Source of the DNA: Rhizophagus irregularis
Lineage: Eukaryota; Glomeromycota; Glomeromycetes; Glomerales; Glomeraceae
Reading direction: 5' to 3'
DNA length: 64,000 nt
Assembly: GCF_026210795.1 (NCBI RefSeq)
Contig: NC_089433.1
Coordinates: 3,187,001 to 3,251,000, forward strand
Shown piece after piece: positions 4,456 to 44,521 of this stretch. The notes under the pieces are model-generated. The model ran no database searches and was not told the origin of the DNA. It saw only the letters and a program-made list of their open reading frames with translations. The translations under genes and the position numbers were made by a program. How positions within the stretch are numbered: the first letter of the stretch is position 1; every line of letters begins with the position of its first letter.

Positions 4456-4610
4456 TTTTGTAATAAATTATAAGTTGTAATTCTGGTAAACTTTACACCC
4501 TAACTCCGGCCAAAATTATAAATTAACAAAAATGGAATTTATAATAAATTTGTATTACATTAGATCTTTCACAAAAAAAAAATTTTTTTCTTCGTTCAAT
4601 CAGTTCAAAA

Positions 4611-22184: not shown

Positions 22185-22348
22185 TTAATCATGGGCTGGA
22201 GTGGGTACAGTATCTACCGATTCCGTATGAACGATCACTGATGGTGGTGTTGGATTCATAGTCTGGTGATAGTGTACGTCGTAAGAAGACGGACGGGTTG
22301 TTGATGATGTTCCGATCTTTGTCTGAAATGACGAAAGTAATGCCACTG
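22185..22348 (-). CDS. Candidate terminal exon of an unknown P/S/T-rich protein
   Basis: Low-confidence exon. The minus strand is open for 54 codons from an AG acceptor preceded by a weak pyrimidine tract at 22349-22350 to a TAA stop at 22185-22187. The protein text is rich in S, T and P (FQTKIGTSSTTRPSSYD ... TPPSVIVHTESVDTVPTPAHD). GC content is higher than in the flanks, which favours coding. I could not find the upstream exon with certainty in 22.35-23.4 kb, and no family is recognised. Confidence 0.25.
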
Positions 22349-22351
22349 CTT

Positions 22352-23400: not shown

Positions 23401-24715
23401 TTTTTAAAAAAAAATATCTACTATTTTATTAATCTGAAAATAGTGTTATGTAACTACATAAAAATTATTTTGATTATTATGCTTTAATAGGAATGGTTCT
23501 TCACGCTAATTAGCTTCTTTGAGGTAAGTTTCAGAAGCTTTTATTTTTATTTTTATTTTTTTCTTTTTTGGAACGGTACTAACCATTTTTTTTTCTTTTT
23601 TTTTTAGCATTTCGGCCTGGACTCTCTCCCGGTAAATAGGTGTGCTATGATGTCTATTATGGTGTTAGTTTCTTTCTCTTAGAACGATACTAACTGTTCT
23701 TTTGTCTTTTTTTTAGCATTTTGGCCGGGACTCTCTCCTGGTAAATAGGTGGTGCTATGGTATCTATAGTATTAGTTTTTTCTTCTAGATACTAACCATT
23801 CCCTTTTCTTTTTTTAATAGGAATAGATTAATGGTTTTTAGAATAGGTAAATATTTAAGTAAGAAAACATAGGAATATTAGAAAAATGAAAATTCATAAT
23901 AAGAGGAACGAAAAGTTTAATGTAAAATCTGATATTAAATAATATAAAAATTATGTATAATCCATTAACAAATAAAATCAATGAATTAAGCATATATGAA
24001 ATTACTTTAAATTCAATTTCTTAATTATTTTTTTCATATAATACATCAGTAATAATGCATTTCTTGACTAATTTATTTTACATATAAGTATCATTTATTT
24101 TTGCCACGAACGTCCACTATAACATCTACTGCTACAGTCTCCACCCGCCTTCTTACAGCGACATTTATTACTATTGCATTCACCTTTACAATTACATATA
24201 CCCCCTGATACTAAACCAGCATTCTGAAGGCATGCAGCTTCTCTAATTGATATTTTGTTAGAGGGAATGACTTCTAATTCAGGAAAAGTTTCTGCTAAAA
24301 AAAAAAGACAAAAGAACAGTCAGTACTGTTCTAGGAGAAAGAAACCAACACCATAGACACCACCTATTACCGAGAGAGAGTCCAGGCCGAAATGCTAAAA
24401 AAAAAAGGCAAAAGAACAGTCAGTACCGTTCTAGGAGAAAGAAACTAACACCATAGTAGACATCATAGCACACTTATTTACCGGGAGAGAATCCAGGCCG
24501 AAATGCTAAAAAAAAAGAAAAAAAAACGGTTAGTACCGTTTCGAAAAGAAAAAAATAAAAATAATAATAAAAGCTTCCAAAACTTATCTCAAAGAAGCTA
24601 ATTAGCCGTGAAGAACTGTTCCTATTTAAAGCATAATAATTAAAATAATTTTTAGTGTAGTTACTAATGGGTTAAACTAGCACTATTTTTTCAGATTAAG
24701 ATATTTTTTTTTTTT
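23400..24715. mobile_element. Fold-back element with ~400-bp inverted arms
   Basis: Arms at about 23400-23820 and 24295-24715 are inverted copies of each other. Both contain TTCTTCACG(G)CTAATTAGCTTCTTTGAG, the pyrimidine tract TTTTATTTTTTTCTTTT, and two or more tandem sub-units of GCATTTCGGCCTGGACTCTCTCCCGGTAAATAGGTG plus a TTAGTTTCTTTCTCNTAGAAC tail. The outer parts pair as TTAATCTGAAAATAGTG / TAATCTGAAAAAATAGTG. The central 470 bp hold a small Cys-rich coding remnant. This is a Foldback/Galileo-like structure or a pair of element ends around a fragment of their gene. Confidence 0.8.
24097..24300 (-). pseudogene. Cys-rich C-terminal module, fragment
   Basis: The minus strand encodes about 67 codons: ETFPELEVIPSNKISIREAA then a knuckle CNCKGECNSNKCRCKKAGG followed by CSSRCYSG and a stop. 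This C.CKG.C...KC.C.K.G..C...C pattern resembles the Cys-rich tail at the C-terminus of many integrase-bearing transposon proteins of the KRBA2/Ginger-like type in invertebrates and early-diverging fungi. That link is from memory of the family, not a search. The rest of the gene (integrase core) is missing; the fragment sits in the centre of the fold-back element. Confidence 0.5.
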
Positions 24716-24732
24716 AAGAAAAAAAGCGAAGC

Positions 24733-24910
24733 ACAAGATTTTGAGAATTAAGAAAAGTTCGAACGAACTTTTCTTTCTTATCCTTGAAGATCTTTAATCA
24801 CAAGACTTTGAGAATTAAGAAAAGTTCGAATGAACTTTTCTTCCTTATTCTTGAAAATCTTTAATCACAAGATTTTGAGAATTAAGAAAAGTTCGAATGA
24901 ACTTTTCTTT
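24733..24910. repeat. 65-bp tandem repeat, three copies, each with a 20-bp palindrome
   Basis: The unit GATTTTGAGAATTAAGAAAAGTTCGAA(C/T)GAACTTTTCTT...CTTGAAGATCTTTAATCACAA occurs at about 24738, 24803 and 24868. AAAAGTTCGAACGAACTTTT is a near-perfect palindrome. The array abuts the outer edge of the right fold-back arm. Confidence 0.85.
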
Positions 24911-25671
24911 TCGTATATCACATTGTTTCACCTAGTTGCGATCTGACGATCTGAGGCACAACATATATATGACATATTCGCAAAATTTTCTGCAGTATAA
25001 ATTTTAAGGGGGGCAAGTCATTATCCTATATCGAAAAATCAGTGCAATAAAAGTTCATACACGAGTTAAAGATTATGTATTTCGTGCTGATAATGGATTA
25101 CTTTTCTGTATGTGATCTCAATAGAATGGAAACATAAATTAACAAAAAGCATGCTTCCCAAAAAATTATTTTTGAAACAAAGGAAAAAGCCAAAAGTCAG
25201 CAAATAATACAAACTACTTGCTATAGCATCAAAAAAAGAAGTGATAAAGGATTCGATAGAAGCATTTTCTAATGCAGATATTCCTTTACGAAAGTTAATA
25301 GTTTACTTCTGTTTTTTTTAAAAACACCTCAAAGAAGGAGGCGCAATTCCTCAAGCAACAACTTTACGTCAGAATTTTCCCAAATTTTCACATTAAAAAC
25401 TTTTTTGGCTAAAGTAAAGATTCTTTAATCAAGTCTCTTAAGTCTCTTGCTTGAAAATCTCGATACATAACTCTTTATATATGAACGGCATTAGATCACT
25501 GTGTAAAATTCTGTTACCGAATAAAACTTGATGGAACATTACTTATAGCACAAAAACACCAAATTTAATATTTGGAAATATTTTTATTTTTAACAATTAC
25601 ATCTATTTTGTTGTGAAAAAAAATTACCTAAGCAATTTTTTGAGATCTAAAGTGTTTACAATATCATGCTT
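24911..25671. other. Gene-free spacer downstream of the 25.7-kb gene
   Basis: AT-rich; a few short open stretches but no conserved text. No feature recognised. Confidence 0.3.
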
Positions 25672-27235
25672 TTATACAGAATGAACTTTAATTCCTAAGG
25701 TAATATGATCTAAAGTTTTTTTGATTTTATCCCCAGGAAGATCAACGTCTGCGCCATCTTTATCTAGTAGTTCATAATCAAGAACGATTTTAAATGATTC
25801 TATTACAAATTTTTTAAGTTGTTCTTGATCATCTTTTGACGATTCAAATTCATCTTTTTGAATAGCACGAAGATGCATAGATAAAATGTTTCTCCACGAA
25901 TCGCCAATGTATTCTTCAACCGTAACCTTTCTATAAATTTGGTTAATATTTTTATTTAATAATAATACAATAATCAATAGTAATTTATTTTGATTCTTAC
26001 TCTTCATCTTTTATATAAGTATTCACCATTTCTGATATTTTTTTCACATATTTGTGCCTATAGTCTGCCATTTTTAATACGCATTCGTGATGAATATTCT
26101 TTGCTGTCTCCTGATGAAGTTTATCCCTCAAATCTGGATAAATTGCACAAATAATCGCATTAAAAACATGCGAATTCGGTTTTCGACACTTTAGAAATAG
26201 GAGCTTGAGTTCTTCGATCAAAAGTTTATTATTTATACCCTTTTCTTTCTAAATAATGATAGACTTTTAATTCAAAATAAATTTACATTAAAATGAATTA
26301 TAAATATTTACTATACCTGAAGAGAAAGAGCTGGCAATTTACAATTTCTAGAATTTCCAGCCGTTACGCTTTTAGATTCCTTAAGAACACTAGCCAGCTT
26401 CAATATTGGTGGATGATCCGCAACAAAATCGGCAATTTCAAATTCTGTGTATGATTCTAAATTGTTTCTCCTTTAAAAAAACAAGAGGTATATTCTAATT
26501 AGTAAGGGCATTAAAGGTATAAGTGTAACGTAAGATGTGATAAATGTGTCCCAAACAGTAGTTTACTTACATGTTTGGACGATCTGGAATTAATATAGGA
26601 ATATCATTCGTTATTTTATCGAAATCGAATAAACTTAAATTTTCTTTTCATTTGAAAACACGTTAGTTTTTCATTCTAAATATTCATAGCAAATAGTTTT
26701 GTTCTTTTGACAAACCTTGCCCTTGTTGTTCAGGTCCTTCGACTGTCTCTAAATCTATTATGTCAGGTGGAATCTCTTGTATAGATTTTTTTTTCTTAAA
26801 TCTTGATTCAACGGTATTAGGTAGACTTCTTTTTTTCGGAGCATTCTTTTCTTGTTGAGATTCTTCTATAACAGCAGTTTTTATTTCTGGAGGAATTACC
26901 ATGACGAATATGTCTTTTTTAGATCTTGCTTCAGGTAAACTTCTGTTTGTTATAGCTAATGCTTGTTCATTTTCTTCTGCGACAGTTTCTAAGTCTGAGG
27001 ATATTTCCTCTATAGATTTATTTTTCTTAGTTCTTGCTTCATTTGTATTAAATGAACTTCTATTTTTTGTTATAGGTTGTTTTGATCCTTCTGCAACTGT
27101 ACCACCTAATCCTATAATAAAAGAAAAGAATATTAAGTTATAGTTTATAATTTATTTGAGATATTATTTATTAAGAAATTTATTTAGCTACATACTTTTT
27201 GATGTAGCATTTTTAGATTTTTTTTTGGGGGCCAT
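25672..27235 (-). CDS. Unknown fungal protein, family shared with 39462-40309 (G1)
   Basis: Function unknown. The start at 27235 reads MAPKKKSKNATSK, a basic nuclear-type N-terminus. Exons then give a low-complexity region with two related repeats (SFNTNEARTKKNKSIEEI and SLPNTVESRFKKKKSIQEI), short exons around DFDKITNDIPILIPDRPNM and EIADFVADHPPIL, and a C-terminal helical domain: LLIEELKLLFLKCRKP, LRDKLHQET, KMADYRHKYVKKISEM, then after an intron (about 25936-26002, phases match) EEYIGDSWRNILSMHLRAIQKDEFESS ... KKTLDHITLGIKV and stop at 25672. The C-terminal domain is clearly homologous to 39462-40309. Exon edges in the middle are uncertain. No enzyme motif seen. Confidence 0.6.
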
Positions 27236-28780
27236 TTTTATTTAGAATATTTAGAAAGAGTGTGGAAATCAGCTTACATTTATATTAATGCAGTAACCGC
27301 GTTAACTACGTGAAGAATCTTCTGATCACAAATGAATCAGAATAAAGTACACGCTTGAAATACGAAAAAAAGTTCAAATTCTTTGTCAAAAACTATTTTA
27401 TGAGGCAATTTTCATCAAATAAAGCAGTGTTCGATCTGACATAATAAATCACACGAGTTTATATTTGTCATTACGAAACAAACTTTACCCCTGACATTTT
27501 CAGCGATTGTTATTTATCTAGCTTTTTTTGTTCATGGTAAAGGTCTTGTGGATTGTTAAAAAATTTATTAAGTACGTCACATCTCCACATTTTAACGAAT
27601 TATTGAATTATTATTATTACTACTATTTTATAATTTACATTTTTATCATTTATATGATTTAGCGAAAAAAAATTAAATTGAACCTGGCAGTAAATTTAAT
27701 TTCTTACAAATGTAGAGATTGTTAAGTATTTGTTTACGAACTTAACAATTTATTTTAATTTGTCAGTGATCTTATGTTGCTATTTTGTAAATCACATTTA
27801 AATTGGAATAAAGAAATGAGCAAAAGTTTGTAACCGGTAACTTACATAATGGTAATGTATTGCAATGACAACCAATCTTTAGTATTCTGAGACAATATTC
27901 TGGTCAATCATGAACGCGGATCTGTCAGTGAGATATCTCAATTATACTAAAATTTATTGTGTGTGAAAGTTTTTCTCTCCCTTTACTGATTTCATCATAA
28001 CACTAAATTGAATGTAGCTTCGATAAAAGTCATGGAGAATTTAAATTCAACACAATGCCTTCATCGGATTGAATATTATGGTAATAGCCCGATGAAAACA
28101 TTTTTTTGCCATGACATAATGTATTTTCTTATATGAAAATTTAGCCAATAAAAACCATCTCCTCTCATCAATTTTGATAAAAAAAATTATTTTATAGCGA
28201 AAAAAAATCTTTCAAAATACTTTAAAAATTTTTTTTTTTAAAAAAAAGGAGCTAATAATATTACATATTACACAAGAAAACTTAATTCTTTTAGAAATGA
28301 TAACCCAAACAAAAAAATATTTTTTTTGTCGTATTACAAACAAAAAATGATACACAAAATAGAAAAATGTATAAGACATGCGTTCCTATCCAATAAAAAT
28401 GGAATGGGAATCCTAATCTATATCTGCCAGTTGGGAAATCCAGATCTTCAACATGTAAAATAAGGAGCAATCAGAAATTTACTTATTGTTGCCAAACCGA
28501 CAATTATGCCAATTAGACTTTATTTGTTAATGTGATATATTAAAATGGTATATAGAAAATTCACTGGTTGAGATTAGGGGTACAGACTTTTTCTTTTTTT
28601 AGCAGTGACGTTACGGCAGTTACGTCGGTAAAGTTTGTTGACAATTTTTGCATGTGAATTGTCAAAGCAAAATAAATCAATCGGTAGATCAGACTAGCCA
28701 ATTATGGTTTGTGCCGAAAGATAATCTTTTTAGCGTTAATAAACTTAAAAAAAAATTTTTCCTTTAAAAAAATTACTCTT
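27236..28780. other. Gene-free spacer
   Basis: AT-rich intergenic DNA. I see no coding exon, tRNA or clear repeat. The first 100-200 bp presumably include the promoter of the minus-strand gene starting at 27235. Confidence 0.35.
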
Positions 28781-29680
28781 ATGGCTTCATTTTTTAGGTA
28801 TGTATCAGCTTAGATTTTTGCGCTTTGGATCGGTAAGTTAGCTTCGAAACTTAACTTTTTTAGTAAATTTTTCTTTTGAAAAAACTTTTTAATTTTTATT
28901 CATAGATATCGGTTTCAAGGGGGGGAAGTATTTTTAAAAAAATCGTTTTAAACTTTCATTTCCTTTTTTAGATACCGGCTTATTTGGATCAGATCTTGGA
29001 TTTAGTAAGTTTCGGTTCAGAACTTACAATTTTATTTTAATTTTTTCTTTTTTTTAAATTCCTCTTTTTTTTGTAGGTATCGGTTTCTTCAGCTTTGGGG
29101 TATGGCAAGTTTTGATTTGATACTTCGAAACTTACATATTTTCTTTAATTTTTTATTAGTTTTTCACCTTTCTTTTTTTCTGTAGGTACTGGATCTTTTG
29201 GCATTGGACTTCAGACGTTGACTTCTTGGACTTCTTTGGTTGGATTTCTCAACATTGAACAGCACTTGGACTTTTTTTTCTGTAGGTCAGCGTCTTGGAG
29301 TATTTTCTCTTGGAACGATAAGTATCTTTGGTGGGTATGGTGATGTTAGCATTATTAAATTATACCAACGCCATTTTTCTTATCTAAAAATTTTTTTATT
29401 ATAGGACCTTCAGAACCAAAGGAACCCCCTGAGAGGTAATTATTAAAAGTAGGAGGGGAGTTTTTTTAAATTGAGAACGCTAGTAAGCTTTATTAACGTT
29501 TCACTTTCTTTTTTTTATTGTAGGGCCTACCAGGTACTTTGAAACTAATAAAACGGCCCATAGAAAAGAAGGGGAGATGTTTTAAATTGGAAATATTAGT
29601 AAATAATACTAATGTATTCTTTTCTTTTGTATGTTTTGGCAGGTTCATTGGATAGATAGTATATGTAGGATTTATCAAAT
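28780..29680. repeat. T-rich degenerate repeats punctuated by splice-like TTTTTAGGTATCGG motifs
   Basis: A loose unit of roughly 110-180 bp recurs four to five times: (T)nAGGTANCGG(N)TT..TTGG(N)..GGNAAGTTT(N)nTTCGAAACTTA, at about 28793, 28905, 28972, 29075 and 29182. Each unit juxtaposes a polypyrimidine-AG (acceptor-like) and GTAAG (donor-like) string. A continuous protein could not be built across units. Bases 29240-29680 are T-rich with no consistent frame. Confidence 0.45.
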
Positions 29681-30387
29681 TAGCTTATTGATAGATTGTA
29701 TTTTAAATTATTGTATTAGAATAATAATAAATATAATATTTGCAATCAATTCAAATCAGCACATTTCTATTAAACAATTAATTACAATCGAAAGATTCTA
29801 TTAGCAATCAGAAGATACTGGTTATATTTAATTTGACAAATTAAATAGTGGTCAAATTAAATAGTGCCAGGTGTGATTTATTTTTATTATGTAATATTAT
29901 AATTGGCACATCCGGTTATATTCTGATTTGCACCATTAATTGACCGCCTAACCGGCATCTGATCACCAAATAAGGATGACTATTGGCATCCAATTGGATG
30001 CCGATTTGTCAGCATTTGACCTGTGTATATATTTTGATAATCTTAATTCGAAAATTTAGTAAGCATTTCCTTTCTTCAAAATAAATACTAGCAAGATGTT
30101 GAAACCTAAAATTAAAATAAAAAACATATTTATATGATAAATTTTGAAGTTAAATACCTTGAAATGCTGCAATCCACATCAGCCAAGATGATATCTACAA
30201 AAAAAGGTTTGAATTTCGTTACTTAAAAGAAAAAAAATGTGTTGATCTGCTAAAATTGAGAATATTCAATAAAATTTGAATTTTGTAAGTTTAGGAAAAT
30301 TATTTTAAATATTGAAATAATAATTAAAAATATTTAATTTTACTACTTAATATTAATAATTTATAGAAATTAACTCTGAACTTTATT
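29681..30387. other. Spacer with possible short-element end
   Basis: Bases 29850-30030 contain a GGCATCCAATTGGATGCC palindrome and end in CAGCATTTGACCTGTGTATAT, matching text at 16112-16126. This looks like an end of a small dispersed element. The remainder (30040-30387) is the 3' flank of transposase copy iii. Confidence 0.35.
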
Positions 30388-33300
30388 TTATATTGCATTA
30401 TAAAAAAATTCATTTAGTAAGTAAGGTTGTGATAGATTATGATTTCTTACTGAACAGTCATTAACACATTGATGAACAAAATGGACTTTAGGTATAGAAG
30501 TTACAAAAGAAATAGGAAAAACATTGTGCCATTTTTTCCTTTCTGTACATATTTTGTATTTTTGACACATCATTAGAGAATCAATACCATTTCTTCCTTC
30601 AATTTTTTCAAACCATTTTAAAAAATAAAAAGGGTATGTTTTAGCATTATTATAAGTATGTAAAAAAATGGCTTGTACTATTGCATATGAATTCCCTTCT
30701 AATTTCTCTTCAAGTTCTACTACATTTCCAACACTTATTCGTATTATTGATGATTCACCATCTTGGTTTAATACCTTATATGAAATATAATTAAAATAAA
30801 TAATTTTGGTATTATGAAGATATTCTGTAAAGTTAAAGTATTCTTTATAAGCTGTTTTAAGACCATAGTAAATATCACCATTAATTGATATATTTGTTTC
30901 AAAATTATTTTGCAAAATCTTATATTGTTTCCATTTAGCTTGTAGCTGAATTTCATAAATAGAATTATCTGGGGATTCAACTGCTTCATTAATTGCTATA
31001 TAATAAAATTTTTTAATAAGTGAAAATTAAAATTAAAATCAGTTAAATAAATTAATAATAAAACATACCTATTTTTTCAGTATTAGAAATAGTTGCTGAT
31101 GTAGCAAACCAAGAAGAAAGCAATAATCTAAAAATATTGTCTTGAAAATAACCATTTCCCAAAAAATTATTATAATGAGAATCCAAAGTACTATCTATGA
31201 TATTACGTAATACCTGTAAAGTATTATATCTTTTTATTAGATCCTTTTCTATCATTTTTCCATTTGTATGTGAAACAGTATTTTTAAATATTTTATGAAC
31301 CATTTCTTTAACTCCAATAGCACTATTTACTAATGTAGCAAATGTTTTAGCATGATGTTGTAAATGACCATTAATATGTAAATTAGGAAGATTAGTAAAA
31401 TCTTGAGGAAAAATCTATAAAATTAATAAAATAATACTCTAATTAATATTATATAATAATTAATAATATTATTTAATTTTAATTAATACCTTTGTAAGTA
31501 AAATTGCTTCTTGGTTTAATAAATCATTCAAAATTTTATATGATTCATTATTAAAAAATAAACTAAAATAAAGTTTAGCACATTTTGCTACTACTACCCA
31601 ACATTGAATTAATTTATCTATAATTCTATTTGTATTAACAGATAGATTTTCTTGTAATTCAATAAGTGAATTGTTTTTTAAATGTTTAATTTGTAAATAT
31701 TGTCAAAGAATATGTGGTAAAACCATAGCTAAATGCAATCTATCTGACATCATAAAACTTTGTCTATGTGTAATTGGATTTGGTAATTTATGCCATTGTA
31801 TAGGCATTTCAAATAACTTCCAATTTTTAATAAATTCATTATTTCCATTTGAATTAAACATATTAAATGTACAATCCATTAATTTTAATATTTTACCAGC
31901 AATAGCGTGATAGATATCTTGGGGTGATTGAAGAAGTCGATCACGTATTAAATTATCTAATATTGGTTTCTGATTTCTTAACCCAAATTTTGAACATAAA
32001 TTCCTTTGAATTGTTAATGAATCTGAATTTAATATAAGGTCAAATTCATCATCCATTAAATGATGATATCGCAATTCTTTAGATATATCATCAAAAGATT
32101 TTAAAGAATTATGATTTTCAATTTTACAAGAATGACAGCCTCTTTTAGCATTATGTCTCATAACTCCTACTAAATCATTTCCCTGTAGAAGGTCTGCAGT
32201 AACAATACCAAGACCTGCTATTACCAATATATTTTTACCTTGAATATTAAAAACTTTTCCTTTTTCTAATTCTTTTAATTCTTGTAAAAATGGACTAATA
32301 AATTCTTTAAAGTTTCCACCAAAAGGAACAAATCCTATAATAAAATGATTTTTTAAAAGTTTTCTCATTGAAAATGGCATATTGCCAATTTGTATGTAAA
32401 TACCACCTAATGAATGATATATATTTCGAAAAGTGCCAAAATCATCATAATAAAGATCTATAAATATTTTCCACATTGGTAAATTATGTGGATTTTGAGG
32501 AAAAGGACAATATTCTGATGGATAATAAAAGTATATTATATCTTCCTACAGTGCATACCCATTTGTTTTGATAGTGTAATATTCGATGGATGTCTAAATC
32601 TATAACATATATTTCTGATTTTCCATTTGTTTTGATAATTATATAAAATTTCAGCAACAATATATGTATAATAATTAGGCTCTTCTTGATCTTGTAACCA
32701 TACTGATGTTTTACCAACTATAACTTCAGGTTCAACTATTATAGGTTTATCTTCTAATAACCATCTTTTATTACTACTATTAGAATAACGATCAGCTGTT
32801 TGATATTGAGCTGGAAGTTCATCAAAAGTTAAAAATCTCTGCAATTTTAACTTTAATCTACTGTTATGTAGAATTATAGACGTTATTCTTATACAATTTA
32901 ATTGATTTGATGCCATAATATGAACAAAGTCTCCTGTAAAATATTCAACTAAATAAACAAATAATAATATATTTTAGTTAAATAATATTAATATAATTTA
33001 TAATTAATGAATACCAAATATTTAAAAAAATACCTGAATTTATCGTAATATTATGTTCACCAAATAATGGAGATTGCTGCCATAGTTCACCATGCCAAAA
33101 TTCACTTTTATTCTCTACTTCAATTCCTGGACCATTATACATTTTAGAAATTAAAAGTGGGTTAGATAAAGTTTTTTTTATGATATCAAATAATGATATT
33201 GCATATGCCTCTCTAAAAGGCTGAGAAGTAGATTGTGTTTTCATGTTAGATATGGGTATAGTGTATTTCTTGACTGTTAACAATGGTAATCTAGCTCGAC

Positions 33301-34061
33301 TATTTTTTTAAAGTATCTAATATTCGTAGGAACTTCTTTGACATCAAAATTTGGGTGGTTTAAAATTTTAACCAAGTCTTCATACGCATTTGTTGCTAAC
33401 AATAAAACGTTTTAAAATATTAAATAATATCTTAGACAAAATATTAATTTATTAATTAATTTTACTTACTTATCATATGTTTAGTAATCCAAGCAAATAT
33501 TGAGGCAGAAGTACTTAATGAAAAATAAGGTCCAAATTCACCATCAAAAGGAGAATTTGGTAATGTATTATTTTCAAGTATATTTTCAGAACCTTCAAAA
33601 TTTTTGTGTTCAACTTCATTATCACTAACAACATCATTATTTTCATCATCACTATCAACATAATCATTTTCATCATCACTTTCGTCATCATCACTTTCGA
33701 TATAATTATTTTCATCATCACTATCATCACTTTCATTGTCGCTATCAACATAATTATTTTCATCATCACTATCAACATAATTATTTTCGTTCTCACTATC
33801 AACATAATCAGTTTCATTATATTCAGTGTAATGTTCAAATCCACTCTCATTTGCATCGTCATTATTATCTGAACATTTAAAGAAAGTTATTTTTAATTCA
33901 AGATATAATATTTTAAATTATTTAAATTCGTTACCTTTTAATTCAGTAGCTACATCATTAATTGTATTGTCTATATTAGTTACATTATTACGAACTTGTT
34001 CTTTTCGTTGTCGTAAATTTAAGCTTCTATTCTTGCTTTTACTGCTTCTTCTTAAAGGCAT
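30388..34061 (-). pseudogene. BAH-type CACTA/Plavaka-related transposase, longest copy (iii)
   Basis: Large transposase read from 34061 (MPLRRSSKSKNRSLNLRQRK) to 30388. Order: basic N-terminus; acidic exon with NNYVDSDDE repeats; FREAYAISLFDIIKKTLSNP; WHGELWQQSPLFGE; BAH-like block 1 (GDFVHIMASNQLNCIRI); core FIDLYYDDFGTFRNIYHSLGG, IGNMPF, FVPFGG, NDLVGVMRHNAKRGCHSC; SPQDIYHAIAGK, FMMSDRLHLAM; NLHINGHLQHHAKTF..VKEMVH; C-terminal BAH-like block 2 ending HQCVNDCS...LLNEFFYNAI. Damage: TGA at 31703-31705 after MVLPHIL, a frame change in an A-run near 33305-33310, and another at about 32510-32560 linked to a ~65-bp imperfect duplication. Transposase role is inferred from similarity to Plavaka/CACTA layouts; the BAH-like label is from pattern only. 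Confidence 0.75.
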
Positions 34062-34257
34062 ACTAAATTTAAAAATAAAGGTAATTTTTTTTTATCAATT
34101 TAAAAATAAAAGTAAAATTTTTTTTTATCGTAAAAAAAAAGATCGATAAAAGCCATTGATTGGCCAGCAAAAATATCGATCTCACTCATGAAGACGATCT
34201 TTTATATTTCTGTATTTATGACATACGCAAAAAAATCACGAAAGTTTTTAACCACTA

Positions 34258-35022
34258 TCCCTTAAATGGTTTTGCCGGCAAATTTGCCTGCAATTTTTCA
34301 AAATAAATTTATATCCAAATATAAAGTTTGTCAATATGATTTGGATTATCCTATAATTCCGCAGCTATATCTACATTTTTAGCATCAATTGTATGGTTTT
34401 GATATGTGGTTAATGACTGCTAATCACCGAAATTAGTCACAAATCAACCTCAAAAAAATAACATCGGAATTTTTATATAATAAATTAATTTTCTTTACCA
34501 TAATATTCTGCTTCATTACAAAGCATTTTAATGTATTTTTTTATTTTTATTATGAAACTTCACACTCTAATGAACAAAATAGAGATGATAAAATTTAACT
34601 TTATGCATTTTTTACAAGTTCACAAAAATAATTCTTTTTTTAGGGTTCTATGTAAAGTCAAAATGCCACTTCTAAACATTAAAAATCATCATAACAAAAG
34701 TTGTTCATCATAGAAATTTCTACATATTCAATTAAGCTTTAATATAGCTGCAATCAAATCCCAATGAGATCGTCAAAGTTAAATGCAAAATTTTTCGAAA
34801 TTTTTTGTCATTTAAAAAATATAACTTTTGACCAATGGTCAATCTTCAATCTTATAATATGTAATTAATAAATAATGATTATTGTCACATAAATTATGAT
34901 TTAAGCTCTTTGCGAAAAAAAATTTTATTAGAATAACTTCATTTTTCATAAAATTAGATGAGAACTGAATTTTCGGTAAAATTGCAGGCAAATTTGCCTG
35001 CAATGTTTTACCGTTTAAGGGA
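34258..35022. mobile_element. MITE (~765 bp) with TA target duplication, abutting TERT
   Basis: Left end TCCCTTAAATGGTTTTGCC-GGCAAATTTGCCTGCAATTTT and the complement of the right end TCCCTTAAACGGTAAAACATTGCAGGCAAATTTGCCTGCAATTTT form imperfect terminal inverted repeats of about 45 bp. TA flanks both sides (34256-34257, 35023-35024), as in Tc1/mariner-derived MITEs. No coding content. The right end is only 15 bp before the proposed TERT start codon (35038), so the element occupies the promoter and leader position. Confidence 0.8.
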
Positions 35023-35037
35023 TAATAAAATATTCTA

Positions 35038-38000
35038 ATGAATAATACAATTGCTAACGCTACACTAAAGACTAATTATTCAAATCTTACACTTTTGTAT
35101 GATTTACTTCAATCATCTGCTCATGATATTGATTTAATTAAAAAAGACGATGAAGAGGAGTATAAGCACCTTCTCCGAACGACTATTGTAAGCTCTAATA
35201 CCTGTAAAGACTTCTCACTGATTACAAAGGAAAAGCAAGAGATTGTGGGAAATATACGAAAAGAACAAATAGGTTTAGATACGGTGAGAATTTATATTGA
35301 TTTATTTCTTTGAGTGAACGTTTACTAATGAACGATATTAATTTGTAAACAATAGATATGTCCATTCATTTTTTAGTAAATAGACATGAACCAATAATCA
35401 ACATAGGCAGATTTGGGTTTACTAAGTCTAATAAATCTATAATTGAAAATCCGAAAGGATATCGAATCTGTGCATTAAATACTACAACTGATTTGATGAA
35501 GAAATCATACGCTTGGTTGAAACTTTATACGAGGTTGGCTTTTGCAAAATTTATATTTAATTAATGTATAAAAAGCATAACTAATTATTATTTTTCAAAA
35601 TAAATAGAATCGGTCAAGAAGCCCTGTGTTTTTTGTTGACAAACTATTCTATTTTTCTTGAGCTCAAAAATGGATGCTATATACAAATTATGGGTCCATC
35701 CATCAGTAGAAAATGTCCCATTGAAGATTTGAATAAATCTTTCAAAGCCGCTATCTTAAATGATCGTAAAATTATAAAAGTATCCAACACGAATTCCATA
35801 TCGAACTTGTTCTTTTCTCGTTCAATTATGTTTTTTAGGCCCTAATATATAATAAAAATGGTGAATTGTGGCACGGGCTGCCAAAAAATCGTAAGTACCA
35901 AAAAAATTCTTACTGTTTTTTTTGTAATAACTAATAAATAAATAATGATTTCATTAGATATCCTTAATGTTGTTAAGTTTTCATATCATAACGTTAATAT
36001 GTCGAATACCGTGATAAGTTATATATTTCCGAAACAATTCAACTTGAAAAACGTATTTACCTGTAGAGAAGTTTCTCATGCATTATATTATACTTATATG
36101 GATAGGAGAAAGGAAATAGATGTAAGTATATATATTTATTAGAATACTTATTAATTGGGTATTATTGTAAAATGATCAATCTATAGCTTATTTTAAAAAA
36201 TAGAATTTACATTGTAAAATTCCGGATTATTTAAAACATCTACTTCCGTATATTGATCACATAATTAAACGTCATAATATATGCCAGTATAGACATTTGC
36301 TTAATACTTACTGCCCGATCCAGGTAATTTTTTTGTGTTTATTTTAATCAAATATTGAATTATTATTTTTTCTTATAATCTGTATTAAATATAAAGGAAA
36401 CAAGTTTAGTTGAGTGCAATACCTATCAGGTAATATTTTAAATATTTTAAAATTATCTTAAATTATTATTAATTTCTAAAAAAAAAATTACTTAATAATT
36501 TAAACAGGTTAAGAAGTTTGTTGTCGGAGTTTTAGATTTTATATTTCCACCCGAATTTTTTGGTGACAAAAATAACAAAACAGTTATTTATAATATGATA
36601 AGTGTTTTTATTGAAAAACGTCACTCTGAAGTAGTATCTTTACATGAAGTCGTGCAAAATTTTAAGGTTATTGTTTAATTTTATTCTATGTATTAAAATG
36701 GTATTTGATTTATTAACGAAATATATATATTTCTAATATTTAGATTAAAAAATGCCAATGGCTTAAAGGCAATAATAATTTGGAAATATTGAAATGTACT
36801 GAAATGTTGTACGAATTAATTTGGTGGATTTTTGAATGTTTAGTAATTCCACTTCTCAAAGTAAATAGATATTTTAAATGATTTTATTTTTTATTTTATT
36901 TATAGTCATTAACAATTTCTATATTAATATTTATAGCTGAATTTTTATATAACAAATCATGCTAAACAAGGAAATAGGTTATCCTATTATCGAAGAGAGA
37001 TTTGGTTTAAAATGGTTGAACAAAATCTTAAATCCCTAACGAGTTCTGTATATGAAAAAATACCGTCAAAGAATGAAGAAACAATTTTCAAAAACAGGAA
37101 ACTGGGTTACTCCGAATTAAAATTCCTCCCTAAAGATAACAAAGGAAATCTGAGACCTATTGTTAACATGAAACGCCCGATGCGTACTTCCAATAATATA
37201 AAGTGACCAAAATCAATCAATTTCATATTAAATACGACGTTTCAGATCCTTAAATACGAAAAAGTAAGTTTATTAAATAATTTGAATTGAATGTTATTGT
37301 AAATATTTAAATATTAATTATTCTTTTTTTTTTATTTGGTAGGAAAAAAATCCTTCATTACTAACTGGGTCTATATTCAATTATAACGAAGTTCATGCTT
37401 GTTTAAAAGAATATAAAAAACACTTATCTAATGATGATAATCCACGACTTTATTTTGCTAAAGTTGATATTAAATGTTGTTTCGAAACAATTGATCAAAA
37501 TATTCTTATGGAAATAATCGAAAAAGAAGTTCTTACTGAAGTTTGTACAATAATAATTTCTTGTTTGCATAATATAATATCTTTTTTTAATTTACTAATG
37601 ATGATTTTTTTAGTACCAATACTCAGTGAATAAATTTGAAGCTATTTATCTAAAAGGTGGAACTATTTATAGAAAACGTGATAACTTTGTTCATGATTCA
37701 AGTAAAAGTTTTTCAACACATTATTTATTGTACTTTAATTTAATTATTTTATTTTTTAAATTTATTTTGTTTTTATCATATATATATATTTAGGTGAATT
37801 TTTATCTTTTCCGAAATACAGCGCCAAATTAACTCAAAATTATAAAAATGCAATTCTTATTGATAATGTGTATGAATCTTATATGGAAGTAGAGGATGTT
37901 CTTGAATTGTTGAAAGAACATATTCAACAAAATATTATAAAGGTAATAAATACAAGTGAATATTATTTAAATGATTTATTTAATTATTTTAACTGATTAA

Positions 38001-39300
38001 ATTTATTAATATAGGTTAATGAAGAATATTATAAACAAAAAGTCAGCATTCCACAAGGATTGGTACTATCATCCTTATTATGTAGTATATATTATGGAGT
38101 TATGGAGCGAGAAGAATTTAAATATATCATTAATGACACGAATGGGGTAAGTATTTTTAAATATTATACTTCAATGTACTTACTGATATATTTAATATTT
38201 AATTAATATTATAATATTATTTAAATATTATTAGTTACTATTGCATTTCCTTGATGATTTTTTGTATATAAGTACAAACAAAAATAATGTTATAAAATTT
38301 ATCACAACAATGCACCAAGATGATTTAAAGTATAAAATCGTTGTAAATGATAAAAAAAGTATGGTAAACTTTGATTTAACTGTTAATAATAATAAAATAA
38401 ATAAAGTTGATGGTTATGGTACGTATTTGCTATTTTATTTTATTTTATTGATTATTTGTTTTATTAATTGTATTGTAAAATATTAACTGAATTTTAATAA
38501 GAGTTCCTGTGGTGTGGAATATTAATTGATACTCGTAATTTGGATGTCAAAGTGGATTATTCAAGATACAGCGATTTATCCCGTTAGTATTCTATAATTA
38601 ATTCAAAAACTATTTATTAATTTACTTATTATTATTTATATTAAATTAGATATTGCTAACATTTTAACTATAAAATCGATAAAGACCCCTGGTACATGTT
38701 TAAAGAAAAAAATGATTGAGTAAGCACTATGATTAATATTATGCAAATTATTAATTTTGAATTAATATAAATAATTATTTATTCAGAATTTTGTTAGCAA
38801 AAAGCCATAAAATTTTTTATGATACTTCGCTAAATACAAGAGAAACTACCCTATTAAATATATACCAAAATTTTTTAATGGCTGGAATGAAATTCCACCA
38901 CTGTATAAAAGGAATGCCTAGACAAAAATCCCAAAGAAATAAAGATTTCGAATTTGGTAAATTTTGATTAAATTTTAATAAATTTAATTATTATTTTTTA
39001 CTATCGCAATTTTTTTGTTATTATTACAGAAGTATTACATAATGCTATTGATCATTTATATTTAGTATTATGTAAAACTGATGCATCAAGTAGATATTCC
39101 TTTAATATAAATAAAAAAGAATTTATGTGGTTAGTGTTGTTATAATTTAAATTTATTTTTATCATAAATATTAACTTCATATTTTTTATTATTTAACAAT
39201 AAGGCTCGGTGCTAATGCTTTTTATTACATTTTAAACAAAAAACAAAGCTATCATAAGTACTTTCACATTTTAAAAAATTTCTTGAAAACTCCCAGTTAG
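35038..39300 (+). CDS. TERT: Telomerase reverse transcriptase, 19 exons, apparently interrupted
   Basis: Catalytic subunit of telomerase; adds telomere repeats using its RNA template. Proposed exons: 35038-35270, 35356-35533, 35608-35890, 35958-36121, 36204-36323, 36397-36429, 36507-36666, 36744-36860, 36937-37263, 37343-37540, 37614-37701, 37794-37942, 38015-38146, 38235-38418, 38502-38582, 38650-38719, 38787-38956, 39030-39129, 39204-39300 (about 960 codons). Seen in order: TEN-like NTTTDLMKK..W..LYTRIGQEALCFLL; GLPKNHILN; IFPKQFNLKNVFT; CQYRHLLNTYCP; QFP block FIFPPEFFG; T motif FYIT..; motif 1/2 LKFLPKDN, LRPIVNM; A FAKVDIKCCFETI (Asp near 37465); insertion domain; B' SIPQGLVLSSLLCSIYYG; C HFLDDFLYIS; E WCGILIDTRNLDV; C-terminal WLGANAFYY. 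Problems: in-frame TGA at 37204-37206, and a frame change near 35840 unless a 59-nt intron (35780-35838) is real. Confidence 0.92.
37204..37206 (+). other. In-frame TGA in TERT between motif 2 and motif A
   Basis: After RPIVNMKRPMRTSNNIK the frame meets TGA, then continues open as PKSINFILNTTFQILKYEK into the next exon, matching the helical segment that follows motif 2 in other TERTs. An 84-nt intron (37162-37245, GT..AG, in phase) would skip it, but would delete the VNM of motif 2, so I judge the stop to be real sequence. CGA to TGA is the simplest origin. Confidence 0.75.
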
Positions 39301-39461
39301 ATAATTTAAATCATATAGTAGATTGTAAGTTATCATTAATTTTTAATAAAATAACATTTTAAGTTTTGGTATTGTTTAATATTATTTCTTTTTTATTTAT
39401 TTAAATGAAATAATCTTATGATATTAATTAATTAGTAATACAATAGTGAAATTATAAAAAA

Positions 39462-40309
39462 TTATAAATCCATATTATATACAATATTAGTATGATATCT
39501 TGATTGTAATTTAATAGAACTAGTACAATTATCCATTTTTTTAAGTTCACCTTTTACATCAATTGGAATAAAAAAAGATTTTATACCAATCAATAAACTT
39601 TTTTTAACAAAATCAAAAAGTTTATTTAAAGAAACTTTGTCATTTTCAAAGGATTCTTTATGAACACAAGAAATATGTGTTGCAAGAATTTGTCTACAAT
39701 AATCTTCAGTAATAATTTTATCTAATAGGTTTTCAAATTCTTCTAATCCGATACTTCTAAAAAAGATTGTTAAATAATAATTTACTAAAACAAAATAAAC
39801 TAATATAAAAACTTCAAAACCGCATACCTAAAATGAATTTCAAGGTCCTGAGCTTTCTTTACTATAATACTCTTGTAATTATATCTAAAATCTGAAAATT
39901 TTCCTCTGCAAATATTGATATAATCTTTAAGTTGATCAGGATTAATTGTAGGATCTATTGTTTTTAGTAATACTTCTAATAAATTATCCGAAGGGTTCCT
40001 GACTCTAAGAAAAAGTAATTTTAGCTCATCTATCAGAATCTTGCTAAATTCTCCCTTTATTAGAAAATTATTAAAAAGTCAATTACAAAAAGTTTAAAAA
40101 TATTAAAATTTGCAAATTTCTTTCTTTACCTTGTCCATCTTTATATAAAAAGTACGATCATACAATGTATAACAAAGATGTGTGATATGAATTTTTATTC
40201 ACGGGCTGAGACTTTGGTAGTACAAAAGTTTTTTTAGATTTTTTGGGACAGATGAAATTGGTAATTCGTCCAACCTATTTTCTTTTTTATTTTTAACAAG
40301 ACGCTTCAT
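39462..40309 (-). CDS. Unknown fungal protein, paralogue of the 25.7-kb gene (G2)
   Basis: Function unknown. The two 3' exons are solid: 39828 to about 40045 (GEFSKILIDELKLLFLRVRNPSDNLLEVLL ... DFRYNYKSIIVKKAQD) and 39462-39756 (GLEEFENLLDKIITEDYCRQIL, THISCVHKESFENDK ... IDVKGELKKM ... VYNMDL). The splice phase joins as R|S. They match G1 at DELKLLFL, DFRY.Y/DYRHKY, and the EEF...QIL.TH block. A likely first exon begins at 40309 (MKRLVKNKKENRLDEL). The middle is unclear, and this copy is shorter than G1. It is convergent with TERT, with only 161 bp between the two stop codons, so overlapping 3' transcripts are likely. Confidence 0.55.
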
Positions 40310-41920
40310 TGTTCATTGTTGTATTGTATTTTGTTAGGATCTGGGCTTATTTTGAAATATTTTGGTTTCAAAAAGTATTACTTCAAAAAAATTATTTTTT
40401 CGTTTTCTTTAATGAAATAATATCCATTTGTTGAAATTGACCGATATAAATTCAAACAACATAAAATTATGTGCATAAAAATTTTGTTTAAAGTCTACCC
40501 GCTAAAAGTGTTTATTTACAATTCATAAATAAAAATTTAAATTATTCCAATTATCGTATGCTTTTCAAAGTCAAAATCTTCTATATCAGGACCATTGATA
40601 AAATTTCTGTGCAAAGCTTATTTCGAAGCTTTGTGAACGATATGTAAGAAATATGTGATATATCAAAATGATATACAATTATCATTGGTTGATCCATGAT
40701 TGTGTAATCTGTATAACCAGCGTGTAACCTATAAGATCTTTTTAGTTTGTTTTTTTCCTCACATTCTTTATAGGCGTATTCTCTCTTTATTAAGAACTTT
40801 TAGGCGAAAACTTGTAAGTTTAAAACTTATCTCGTTTCTTAATTCTACAAAGTTTAGATCGAGTTTAATTTTTTCTCTTTCTTAGATAGTTTTTCACTTT
40901 CTTGTAAGTCAATTAACGCGTTTATTATTCTTATTTTTTTATTTTTTAAACATGTTTTATTACTCTTATTTCCTAACTAAACCACGTTGATTTATTGCAG
41001 GCGGGTTCTAACTTCCCATTTTCTCCTCCCTTTCTTTGCTTTCTTATTTCATTCTTAGGTGTAATAACGTTATTGTTGTTATTTTTCACTTTCTTGTAGA
41101 CGGGTCCTAACTTTACATTTCCTCTTTGTAAGTCAATTAACGTGTTTTATTATTTTTTTAACATGAATTTTGTTACTCTTATTTCACTAAACCACATTCA
41201 ATTTTGCACTTTCTAACTTTCCATTCTTTTTTTTGCTTTTTTAGGCGACTTTCCTTCATGCCTTTCCCTTTCTCTTAATACCCATTCTTCTTACTTTCAC
41301 CTTCCTTACTTTATGTTTCAAAAGGAAATTAAAGACGTTAGAAACAAAACGGGTAGATTTGCAAGGTTTCCTTGCGAAATTTTTTTTTTTTTCAATTAGA
41401 ACGAATTTCTTTAAGCAAGTTCTTTTAGGCGATATCATAAGATTCCTTTCAAACGAAGAATCTGTAATAATGGTAAATTTTATTAATATATTTGGGTTTT
41501 TTTTTATGGAGAGCAATTTTCTTTAGGTTTTCATTCTTAGATGTAATAACGTTATTGTTGATATTTTTCACTTTCTAGTAGACGGGTCCTAACTTACATT
41601 TCCTCCTTGTAAGTCAATTAACGCGTTTTATTATTTTTTTAACATGAGTTGTTACTCTTATTTCATTAAACCACATTCAGTTTTGCACTTTCTTCTAACT
41701 TTCCATTCTTTCTTTGCTTTCTTAGGGGACTTTCCAATTTCTTTAAGCAAGTTCTTTTAGGCGATATCATAAGATTCCTTTCAAACGAAGAATCTGTAAT
41801 AATGGTAAATTTTATTTGTATATTTGGGCTTTTTTTATGGAGAGCAATTTTCTTTAGGTTTTCATTCTTAGGTGCAATAATGTTATTGTTGATAGAATTG
41901 ATATTTTTTACTTCTTAGTT
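40310..41920. repeat. T-rich degenerate repeat region with duplicated ~330-bp segment
   Basis: Segments GCGATATCATAAGATTCCTTTCAAACGAAGAATC ... GGAGAGCAATTTTCTTTAGG occur at about 41428-41525 and 41759-41858. CTTTCTTGTAGACGGGTCCTAAC occurs with CTTGTAAGTCAATTAACGCG several times (40900, 41090, 41575). As at 28.8-29.7 kb, acceptor-like (TTTTTTAGGCG) and donor-like (TTGTAAGT) strings alternate. The minus-strand frame at 41256-41516 is the complement of this repeat. Bases 40310-40700 show nothing. Confidence 0.5.
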
Positions 41921-41979
41921 TTTTTTAGATGAAATGGGATTTTGTTTAATTATTTTAATTATGTATATTAATATAATTA

Positions 41980-42744
41980 TGAACAAATAAAAATAACAAG
42001 TACATTATTTCAATAAATTAGTTTTGATTTTTATATCATATATATAGTATATAGTATTGTATACATATAAGTAAATATAAAATTATAATATAATTAGTAT
42101 ATTATTTAAATACATTTATAATATTTAAAATATATTCATACGAGTTTCAATTTATATGATATATATATTGTTTATATATAATTACTATATTATATATCAC
42201 ATTAAAAATATATATTAATTATGTATTAATTATATATATATTATATTATTTTAAATATAACAAATATATTGTATCAATATTGTTAATATAATATTTATAA
42301 TATTTAAAATATATTCTTAAGAGTCTCAATTTTATATTATTTATTTATTATTCATATATAATTATTATATAACAAATATATATATAATATATTAATAAAT
42401 ATATTTTAAATATATATATACTAAACATTAAATATATATATACTATATATTTAATATATGTTAAATATATTATATATATATTATAAATATATTATATATA
42501 TATATTGAATATACAAATACTATATCCTAAATATATATATATAATATATTAATTATATAGTATTTATATATTTAATATTAAGTATTTATATATTAAATAT
42601 ATTATTTCAAATATAACAAATATATTGTATTAATATTGTTAATATATATTTATATATTTAAAATATATTCTTATGAGTCTCAATTTCATATTATTTATTT
42701 ATTAAATATATATAATTATAATATTATAAAAATATTGTAAAAAT
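41980..42744. repeat. Extreme AT tract (TATATA-rich), right edge of the 22.7-kb block
   Basis: More than 90 percent A+T with many TATATA runs and a long imperfect duplication (AAATATATTCTTANGAGTCTCAATTT recurs near 42305 and 42660, with a related copy near 42125). No coding content. It ends at the direct repeat ATTTTAAAAAAT, where the transposase gene resumes. Confidence 0.6.
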
Positions 42745-44521
42745 ATTTTAAAAAATCAGAGATTTCAGCAAAGAAGGAAAACTCGACAGATCTTATATTA
42801 GATATTGCCAGTATATCTCGTTATCACCATATTACTGACTCCCAATTCAAAAAGATCTTCACAGCTTCAACTCTTAGGCAACAAAACAATATTGCAAAGG
42901 AATATGGTTTACAAACTAGATTGCCAATTCTTGATCAACTTCAACGTGAATGATACTTGCAGTCACCACAAGATATTTATCACATAATAGCCGGGCAAAC
43001 ATTAAAACTACTAAAAGTAACAATTTCCATGTTATCTCCAGAAGTTGAAAGAAATTTTATTAGTGTCTGGAAATCATTTGAATACCCTCGTCAATGGTCA
43101 AAGCTTCCAAATCCTATTAGTCATATCGAAACTTTTATGATGTCTGATCGACTTCGATTGGGAATGGTAAAGCCATTTATTTTAAATAGATCGCTGACCA
43201 TTAATTGTTTAAAGCCACAAGAAATAGAAAAACTACAAGAGCGAACAAACATGAATCGCAATCAAGTAATTTCTAATATTATTAAGTGCTGGGCAACTGT
43301 AGCTAAATATTCCCAGTTGGCATTTAAGATTTCGTTAACAAAGGATGACTATATAGAGCTTGAAAATTATTTGAATAAAGAACGAAAAGCATTGATTGAG
43401 GTAAAATTTATAGTTGTTACAAAAAAAAAAATATTATAAATTTCAATTTTATTAGGCCTTTGAAACCAAAAAAGAATAAATTCCTTACATTTGGGTAATT
43501 TGGATTCAGTTCTACTAACTATGACTATGTTATACTTATTTATACTTATTACAGTTATCCGATGAATTCGTGGATCTCCCTAACCTTCACGCTAATTACC
43601 ATTTATTGCGACATGCAAGAATATTCAGTACTCTTACAAATACGGCAGTCAGAATAAAAGAAATGGTCCATCATATCTTTAAAAACATAGTTCCACATAC
43701 AAATTTCAAGAATATTGAATTAGACTTATTAAAACGGTATACAACTAAACCTTACAATCTATTCGGTATTTTGTAGATGGTGGAATTGATCCTTAAAATT
43801 TACGATCTAGTGTTGAATTTATGAATTTATCTCAAAATTCTGATAGCTTATTCAAAGATTGGTTTATTATGGAAAATTCAGAAATGAATAACGAAAAACT
43901 AGAAGGTAATATTAATTTCTTTATATAGTTAAAGTATATACATTCTAACATTTTTTATTAGTATGTTTACAATCTAGTGAGTTTCGGAATATAGTATTAA
44001 GAAAGCCAGCATCAATTCGCAACACGAATATTGGAATTAATACAATTTCGTTTCATTCTGATTTGGCTCTTGCATATAAAAGTTTTGGATATCACGCATC
44101 ATTGATTAATAAGGCTTGTAATTTTTACGAATATGTATCTTACATCCAAGTTGTGCAAAATGTCGAAATCCAATGTCATTTGAATAAGGGCGATATAGTG
44201 ACGATTAAAGAGGTTGATTATGGGGAAAGTTATGCGGTTATCAAAGGTATTTTTAAACACCAGAACAATGATGGATATTATTATCCATTTATTTATGTCG
44301 ATTGGTTTGAAGATACCTATAAGAAACACAACAAATTGGATTGTCCAATCTTCGTCCTTCGTCACGATGATTATTATTGCAAGATATTTCCATTGACGGT
44401 CATAGATAAAGTTCAGAAGGCGTATTTTGTACATGATTGTAACGCAAGATGCAAGGAATCTGATCATTTTCTGGAAAATAATCATTATTTAAAAAACGAA
44501 TTTTTTTTCGCAGCTGTTTAA
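42745..44521 (+). pseudogene. BAH-type transposase, 3' part (copy ii)
   Basis: C-terminal half of the transposase, starting KKSEISAKKENSTDLILDIASISRYHH, i.e. from just after the point where copy i stops. It contains QSPQDIYHIIAGQ, LPNPISHIETFMMSDRLRLGM, NLHANYHLLRHARIF, VKEMVHH-like text, and a final exon (about 43960-44521) with the BAH-like block GDIVTIKEVDYGESYAVIKG ... PFIYVDWFED ... YFVHDC. Damage: TGA at 42951-42953 (before LQSPQ) and further stops/frame change around 43745-43805. It is longer in the variable loop than copy iii. Together with copy i it would make one complete gene. Confidence 0.8.

Follow-up and report, generated by a model that had tools for sequence, protein, structure and literature searches.

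Introduction

How does a gene for telomerase reverse transcriptase (TERT) come to carry an in-frame stop codon between its motifs 2 and A? The gene in question lies in a 64,000-nucleotide stretch of Rhizophagus irregularis DNA (assembly GCF_026210795.1, contig NC_089433.1, positions 3,187,001 to 3,251,000 of the forward strand), which we call the window; bare coordinates count from its first letter, and handles such as C5, the contig of the window, denote contigs. An earlier note on this DNA had offered three explanations of the TGA: a second, dead TERT copy, an assembly error, or a recoded stop. Our analysis favours the first in a particular form, in that the window very probably holds a dead TERT copy travelling as cargo in a DNA transposon with terminal inverted repeats (TIRs) and a Plavaka-like transposase.

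A decayed TERT gene in the window

The gene and its principal lesions are as follows.

35038..39362, + strand: TERT cargo gene, decayed, 19 exons (spliced alignment, copy comparison)
35347..35348, + strand: intron-1 splice acceptor AG lost (AA here; AG in C17, C27 and C15)
35839..35840, + strand: 1-nt deletion, frameshift in exon 3 (copy alignment)
37204..37206, + strand: in-frame TGA (CGA, CAA or CGG in the other copies)
39256..39257, + strand: 4-nt deletion in the last exon, C-terminal frameshift (copy alignment)

The identification of the gene in the earlier note, as a TERT of 19 exons across 35038-39300, is borne out by the exon reading, by a Telomerase_RBD match (PF12009, E=3.1e-15, above the curated cut-off) at C5:3223505-3224035, which is the window locus, and by comparison with solved structures. 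A 452-residue piece from the reverse-transcriptase half of the majority protein (majority sequence and protein being the consensus of the three close copies on C5, C17 and C27) reached a best E of 3.2e-60 against solved TERTs, and the distinct solved-structure sequences that it matched at E <= 0.01 are all (15 of 15) named telomerase reverse transcriptase. The introns run GT..AG save for the AA acceptor of intron 1; the window copy's own frame stops at 39300, and the frame of C17 and C27 ends at 39360-39362. The element gene resembles fungal TERT in having the RNA-binding domain, T, 1, 2, A, the insertion domain (IFD), B', C, E and the C-terminal extension in order, and differs from it in lying inside a transposon and in being broken in all four element copies. 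Motifs A (KVD), B' (QGS) and C (LDD), with the IFD between A and B', stand in this order both in the majority sequence and in a further TERT on C9.

The copy alignment also confirms the TGA between motifs 2 and A, where the earlier note had placed it, and gives the aligned codon as CGA in C17, C27 and C16, CAA in C15 and CGG in C9. Missense changes add to the lesions listed above: in VGIPQGS of motif B' a G has become S and the final S has become L, KVSIPQGL standing in place of KVGIPQGS, and in FPWCG the P has become L. Because these lesions are several and independent, the window copy, as far as its sequence can tell, is dead; together with the intact-looking TERT on C9, they uphold the first of the three explanations. 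In reading the TGA as in frame the earlier note was right, but it overlooked the other lesions and the transposon around them.

The spectrum of private substitutions points to the origin of the stop. Set against the consensus of the three close copies, the TERT region of the window carries 28, all but one of which (27) are C>T or G>A, with 14 of these 27 in CpG context. Over 16.6 kb of aligned element, C>T/G>A changes make up 116 of 144 private changes in C5, 94 of 143 in C27 and 73 of 86 in C17, with CpG odds ratios of 4.9-5.5 (p = 7e-15, 1.2e-11 and 4.2e-11, respectively). Read against the other copies, the TGA is a nonsense mutation of an arginine codon, CGA to TGA at a CpG, and one of these C-to-T decay changes. 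High CG methylation of transposons, which one study describes as general in R. irregularis (PMC8647823), would explain such decay. Repeat-induced point mutation was considered as the cause and rejected, as CpG is favoured (odds ratio about 5) and decay of methylated CpG fits better. An assembly error at 37204, which would make the TGA an artefact, is very improbable, since the TGA falls in the same mutation class as 26 other private changes of the gene region, and since splice, indel and missense lesions are present in the window copy as well.

Recoding of the TGA in a working TERT, whether through selenocysteine, suppression or programmed readthrough, would agree with the continuation of homology and frame past the stop, but is exceedingly improbable: readthrough would be pointless given the splice and frame lesions upstream, TGA is absent at that codon in the five other copies, the C9 gene has no in-frame stop, and C17 and C15 have TAG at other positions. 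In the window ARAGORN detected no tRNA gene, a result of little bearing on the genome at large.

TERT copies elsewhere in the genome

A genome search for another TERT, which the earlier note had proposed as a check, gave six loci by family, DNA and protein comparison: those on C5 (the window), C17, C27, C15 and C9, and a fragment on C16. DNA identity to the window TERT is 97-99% for C17 and C27, 80-81% for C15, 66-70% for C9 and 66-69% for C16. One of the six looks intact.

C9:4942077-4936538: intact-looking host TERT, 21 exons, 1,319 aa, ATG to stop without a break

As the sole intact-looking locus, the C9 TERT is likely, on sequence grounds, to be the working host gene. Its introns are GT-AG plus one GC-AG, some 300 residues of linker follow its N-terminal domain, and the reading frames next to it look ordinary; the element TERTs, in contrast, lack the long linker and two of the introns. 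Three frame breaks that a spliced aligner had placed in this gene disappeared with corrected exon ends and the GC-AG intron.

Each of the other copies is damaged in its own way. In the C27 TERT, exon 3 is interrupted by an insertion of 3.7 kb and one codon of motif C is missing; that of C17 begins with ATA as start codon, has exon 5 interrupted by 1.2 kb of inserted DNA and contains one TAG; and that of C15 has one TAG, and QES in place of QGS. The fragmentary C16 gene (C16:4858062-4860276; 3 stops, 10 frame breaks) represents a third TERT lineage, highly diverged and broken; the 8.5 kb examined there contain neither the element transposase nor a TIR. Short matches to the TERT region (about 50-90 bp) also occur on C6, C8, C13 (two), C16 at 92.6 kb and C9 at 4960.9 kb.

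A transposon around the TERT gene

The element and the parts that define it, with the corresponding units on other contigs, are the following.

20027..42773: TIR DNA transposon carrying TERT, 22,747 bp including nested insertions (TIR, target-site duplication, empty sites)
20027..20037, + strand: left TIR CTTTGCTGAAA (end comparison)
30376..34061, - strand: transposase gene (Plavaka-like), apparent start codon at 34061 (frames, profile comparison)
39459..40147, - strand: gene X, function unassigned, common to the four TERT elements and two TERT-less relatives
42763..42773, - strand: right TIR TTTCAGCAAAG, with an AT-rich repetitive subterminal region upstream
C17:1759735-1733241: TERT unit, target-site duplication TA/TA
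C27:2768030-2730876: TERT unit, target-site duplication TA/TA
C15:2209438-2169139: TERT unit, target-site duplication AA/AA

The two TIRs of the window element form a perfect 11-bp pair, flanked on both sides by the target-site duplication (TSD) AA, and a TIR with a 2-bp TSD is found at all four loci (AA in C5 and C15, TA in C17 and C27), with one mismatch in the left TIR of C17. The left 262 bp of the element recur at the ends of the C17, C27 and C15 elements, in C27 as two pieces split by an insertion. At two C5 sites, 2975.6 kb and 5689.2 kb, the flanks are joined without the element and overlap by 2 bp, the junctions reading ...ACTAAGGAAAAC or ...ACTAAAGAAAAC. Transposase, TERT and gene X keep their order and orientation in C5, C17, C27 and C15, with TERT and transposase head-to-head, and the differences in unit length would stem mainly from nested insertions. 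Judged from their ends and contents, the four units are four independent insertions carrying TERT.

A plain segmental duplication of a transposon-rich host TERT locus would also yield long copies on different contigs, and the copies here are indeed long (over 17 kb) and so distributed. Such an origin is nonetheless highly improbable, given that TIRs with 2-bp TSDs bound the copies at four sites and that empty sites exist, and given that neither transposase, gene X nor TIR was found in the 19.5 kb around the C9 TERT (7.5 kb plus 6 kb each side).

In the favoured account, of TERT as transposon cargo, the mobilizing enzyme would be the adjacent transposase. Its profile resembles that of Plavaka transposases from the same window (hhalign probability 86, E 5.2e-6, 142 columns, thin alignments), where two other proteins match Pfam Plavaka (9785-10396 and 62163-63038; E 1.2e-24 and 7.3e-35). 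The window transposase exons gave no Pfam match at E 0.01, and the Plavaka model PF18759 gave none up to E=5 for the joined transposase exons of a TERT-less relative on C27. TIRs of CACTA/EnSpm elements characteristically begin with CACTA or CACTG, and neither start is present in CTTTGCTGAAA. Because the Pfam model was missed and the TIR lacks this start, we name the element Plavaka-like from its sequence features and assign it to neither Plavaka nor CACTA. It shares with Plavaka/CACTA (EnSpm) fungal transposons the TIRs, the 2-bp TSD, repetitive subterminal ends and, as far as the thin profile alignments show, a similar transposase; beyond the two points just named, it differs from them in its length of 22.7 kb and in its cargo of TERT and a candidate telomerase RNA. 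Plavaka elements are described as prevalent in several R. irregularis strains in one report (PMC11075540).

Between the two divergent genes lie an intergenic region and an insertion within it.

34062..35037: divergent intergenic region, transposase start to TERT start, 213 bp without the 763-bp insertion
34259..35021: 763-bp inverted-repeat insertion with ends CCCTTAAA, not in C17 or C27, splitting the intergenic region

The start codons of TERT and transposase stand 976 bp apart in the window; since only 213 bp separate them once the insertion is discounted, the two genes may share a divergent promoter.

Probable capture and selection of the mobile TERT

Two TERT-less relatives of the element, at C18:585.8-595.6 kb and C27:2905-2915 kb, have the transposase at 78-82% and gene X at 75% DNA identity. 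Between these two genes tblastn found no TERT at E 0.01 (14.9 and 13.9 kb searched), and spliced TERT alignment scored 48 and 54 in the two relatives against 2,510 for C9; the absence applies to the relatives as sampled over these inner stretches. Because both, thus sampled, have no TERT at the matching place, the gene is best read as having been gained in the TERT-bearing lineage, as intron-bearing genomic DNA.

Comparison of the majority with the C15 TERT over 966 codons gives a nonsynonymous divergence (dN) of 0.113 and a synonymous divergence (dS) of 0.553, hence a dN/dS of 0.204, with differences of 13.4, 10.1 and 24.6% at codon positions 1, 2 and 3 and of 32.5% at 4-fold sites. Polarised by C9, synonymous and nonsynonymous changes stand at 88:92 and 87:93 on the two branches, where about 1:4 would be expected by sites, and the majority holds no stop and C15 one, against some 10 per lineage in a neutral simulation with the observed spectrum. 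Purifying selection on TERT while it was mobile is therefore likely, if not proven, and in view of such selection between the C15 and the C5/C17/C27 lineages the gene was probably functional during that time. Since the last burst, dN/dS ratios to the majority of 0.37, 0.51 and 1.05 suggest relaxed constraint.

TERT might instead have been captured as a neutral passenger, never functional on the element, so that the constraint predates capture. This fits the present breakage of every element copy and the low intron divergence, and is unlikely, given that C15 and the majority share neighbours, the shortened linker and the missing motif-2 intron and so diverged after a shared capture, and given the codon-position bias and the far smaller number of stops than under neutral simulation.

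Several observations weigh against a TERT maintained by selection on a Plavaka-like transposon. The element transposase has no Pfam match above curated cut-offs, and the empty sites represent paralogous copies of a repeat and not alleles. The majority sequence conceals stops private to single copies, and intron divergence is only 13.4% over ungapped columns, with 216 columns gapped, so that by the intron yardstick selection appears much weaker. Relative to C15, dS is unequal across the element (TERT 0.55, transposase 0.37, gene X 0.25), which is not predicted by a single co-inheritance without gene conversion or rate differences. Finally, all four element TERTs are now broken, so that a role for them on the element today is not supported.

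A candidate telomerase RNA

Left of the transposase lie two further conserved blocks, one of which contains a template-like motif.

22530..22995, - strand: non-coding block of about 470 nt conserved across the four TERT elements; candidate gene for a telomerase RNA
22777..22935, - strand: template-containing domain with a long closing helix predicted (RNAalifold)
22881..22890, - strand: template-like CCCTAACCCT (TAACCCTAACCCT in C15), at the same place in the block
25582..27384, - strand (judged from frames): gene Y, conserved block with open frames, 81% to C15

The evidence leans slightly towards the block at 22530-22995 being, or having been, a telomerase RNA gene. It is 98% identical to its counterparts in C17 and C27 and 81-83% to that in C15, and was judged non-coding because it shows 1- and 2-nt indels and has no reading frame longer than 61 aa. 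A DNA search of the genome found no match beyond the four TERT elements, all of which have it, and it is one of the few pieces left of the transposase that align between C5 and C15, the others being the terminal 262 bp and gene Y (for two frames of which Pfam returned nothing at E 0.01). On the far side, beyond gene X, parts of the subterminal region can also be aligned, at 71-81%.

All four blocks contain a template of about 1.5 telomere repeats, CCCTAACCC in C5, C17 and C27 (then T) and TAACCCTAACCC in C15, which is complementary to a TTAGGG telomere; TTAGGG repeats stand at one of five contig ends examined, the other four showing none. As the bounded 13-nt form of the template occurs 8 times genome-wide, C15 copy and arrays included, a chance match in a given 470-nt block would be rare. 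RNAalifold closes the template domain with 28 pairs (columns 61-97 with 185-221), 3 of which are not kept in C15 and one of which shows a double change; the data are thin. The 164-nt core has a minimum-free-energy z of -2.53 (5 of 200 shuffles as good). In a 70-pair structure, some helices of which were chosen by eye, 4 pairs are doubly changed, where shuffles average 1.0 (2 of 500 reach that number) and sliding gives 0-1.

Other results also tell against a telomerase RNA. Degenerate CCCTAA-like repeats are common in the genome, and the comparison rests on effectively two sequences. In the 108-pair RNAalifold structure only 1 pair shows a double change, and its covariation term of +0.56 lends no support; the core folds almost equally well when read on its opposite strand (z -2.00, 7 of 200), and the 466-nt fold as a whole is not unusual (z -0.71, 19 of 100). 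Rfam gave no match to the block at gathering score, its five sub-threshold matches at E up to 10 being unrelated and including no telomerase RNA family, and inspection of the block alignment by eye recognised no pseudoknot or three-way junction with confidence.

Nor did limited pattern, DNA and RNA-model searches of the genome find a host telomerase RNA for comparison, which again counts against the candidate. A 20-mer with up to 3 mismatches matched 42 sites, 4 of them the elements, against 25 for the reversed control, and 4 near-matches were examined; a 22-mer with up to 3 mismatches found only the four elements, and the C15 block, searched as DNA at E up to 10, only these and a 42-bp self-match. 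The pattern DTAACCCTAACCCTB occurs at 8 sites genome-wide (control 1), of which 3 were examined, and DCTAACCCTAACD at 53 against 49 for the reversed control, no clear excess; an RNA model run on 40 regions from the latter reached a best E of 0.12. Run on the 3 sites and 4 near-matches, the model gave one match at E 0.0013 (L044, 20.9 bits) and the rest at E of at least 0.14; run on 12 further sources (144,711 bases, E up to 1), it returned the window block and one match at E 0.77. The L044 match (C8:3778400-3779400, positions 273-128, minus) aligns the template to a deletion and was read as chance. Dispersed degenerate repeats of CCCTAA/CCTAAT type are numerous genome-wide, for example at L050, L061, L064 and L085. 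As no second telomerase RNA emerged from these limited searches, the C9 TERT of the host could conceivably use the element-borne one.

Implications of a possible mobile telomerase

We propose that a TERT with its introns was captured a single time by an ancestral element, as DNA and not cDNA, beside the transposase, and that the gene was probably kept expressed there, perhaps via a divergent promoter. Purifying selection would then have continued to act on TERT during its mobile phase, probably along with a telomerase RNA on the same element, until, after the latest burst (C5, C17 and C27), CpG deamination, indels and new insertions degraded the copies. It may be speculated that telomerase could protect linear intermediates or heal ends broken by transposition. 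Because the present copies are decaying, the system in this genome may be either on its way out or surviving elsewhere in the population.

A more extensive version, in which TERT and an RNA encoded on the same element worked together as a complete telomerase to the benefit of element or host, is narrowly favoured on the template, helix, distribution and double changes described above, set against the equivocal folds and the failed family searches. More tentative, and on the whole doubtful, is the proposition that a transposon acquired both telomerase subunits and was selected for this, as a mobile self-contained telomerase spread by transposition. Were it true, mobile telomerase might heal chromosome ends broken by the element's excision, or make hosts tolerate the element. 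If the candidate RNA were confirmed, the element would once have carried the whole telomerase, and the template-bearing block offers a lead to telomerase RNA in this lineage.

Telomerase is commonly portrayed as a retroelement-related reverse transcriptase that the cell keeps. Here the traffic appears reversed, a cut-and-paste element carrying telomerase and seemingly having kept it under selection; its copies amount to a natural TERT gene-dosage experiment, and it may offer a route for telomerase between genomes. Marek's disease virus carries a telomerase RNA and is not known to carry a TERT. The likeness is that of a mobile genome with a telomerase RNA, a candidate in our element and, in a passage on the virus, a viral gene (vTR; PMC2929889), and the difference is that the carrier is there a virus and here a DNA transposon. 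Pack-CACTA elements, enlarged En/Spm families and Terminons likewise carry extra genes as cargo, whereas in the present element the cargo is telomerase itself. A source that cites enlarged En/Spm families of 16-20 kb mentions telomerase, in the part concerned, with regard to the kinship of Penelope-like reverse transcriptases with telomerase and not to a captured TERT (PMC6431247). Among the literature matches listed, no title or abstract start describes a TERT-carrying DNA transposon, a weak negative with subscription papers and preprints mostly outside its scope; within the same narrow scope, and as weakly, no study of TERT or telomerase RNA in Rhizophagus was among the matches listed, the one paper listed by the search made for the RNA being a review of fungal nuclear organisation (PMC10246852).

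Related element ends and neighbouring features

Relatives of the left end of the element, 73-84% similar, occur at C28:3252929, C22:1484740, C30:141093, C18:557669, C23:1170338, C32:2370678 and C1:7462393, and those on these seven contigs may carry other cargo. A related right end with TIR lies at C1:2841224-2843031 (94-98% to pieces of window 40634-42774), with no TERT among the matches listed for the 6 kb examined. At C11:1910803-1911163, CTAACCCTAAC stands 38 nt before TTTCAGCAAAG, identical to the right TIR of the element, possibly marking a further element end. In the window itself, a further exact left TIR, CTTTGCTGAAA, is found at 53044-53054, with no exact partner rightward in the window, and a repeat of about 380 bp is nested near the left end of the element (20285-20666), with several copies of 90-99% identity on other contigs. 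Elsewhere in the window, hAT-like transposase frames occupy 4548-6689, with a DUF659 match within 5208-5969. Cytochrome-P450-like genes in opposite orientation lie at 45945-47132 and 55579-56743, the call resting on Pfam for 45945-46718 and on similar reading frames for the remainder.

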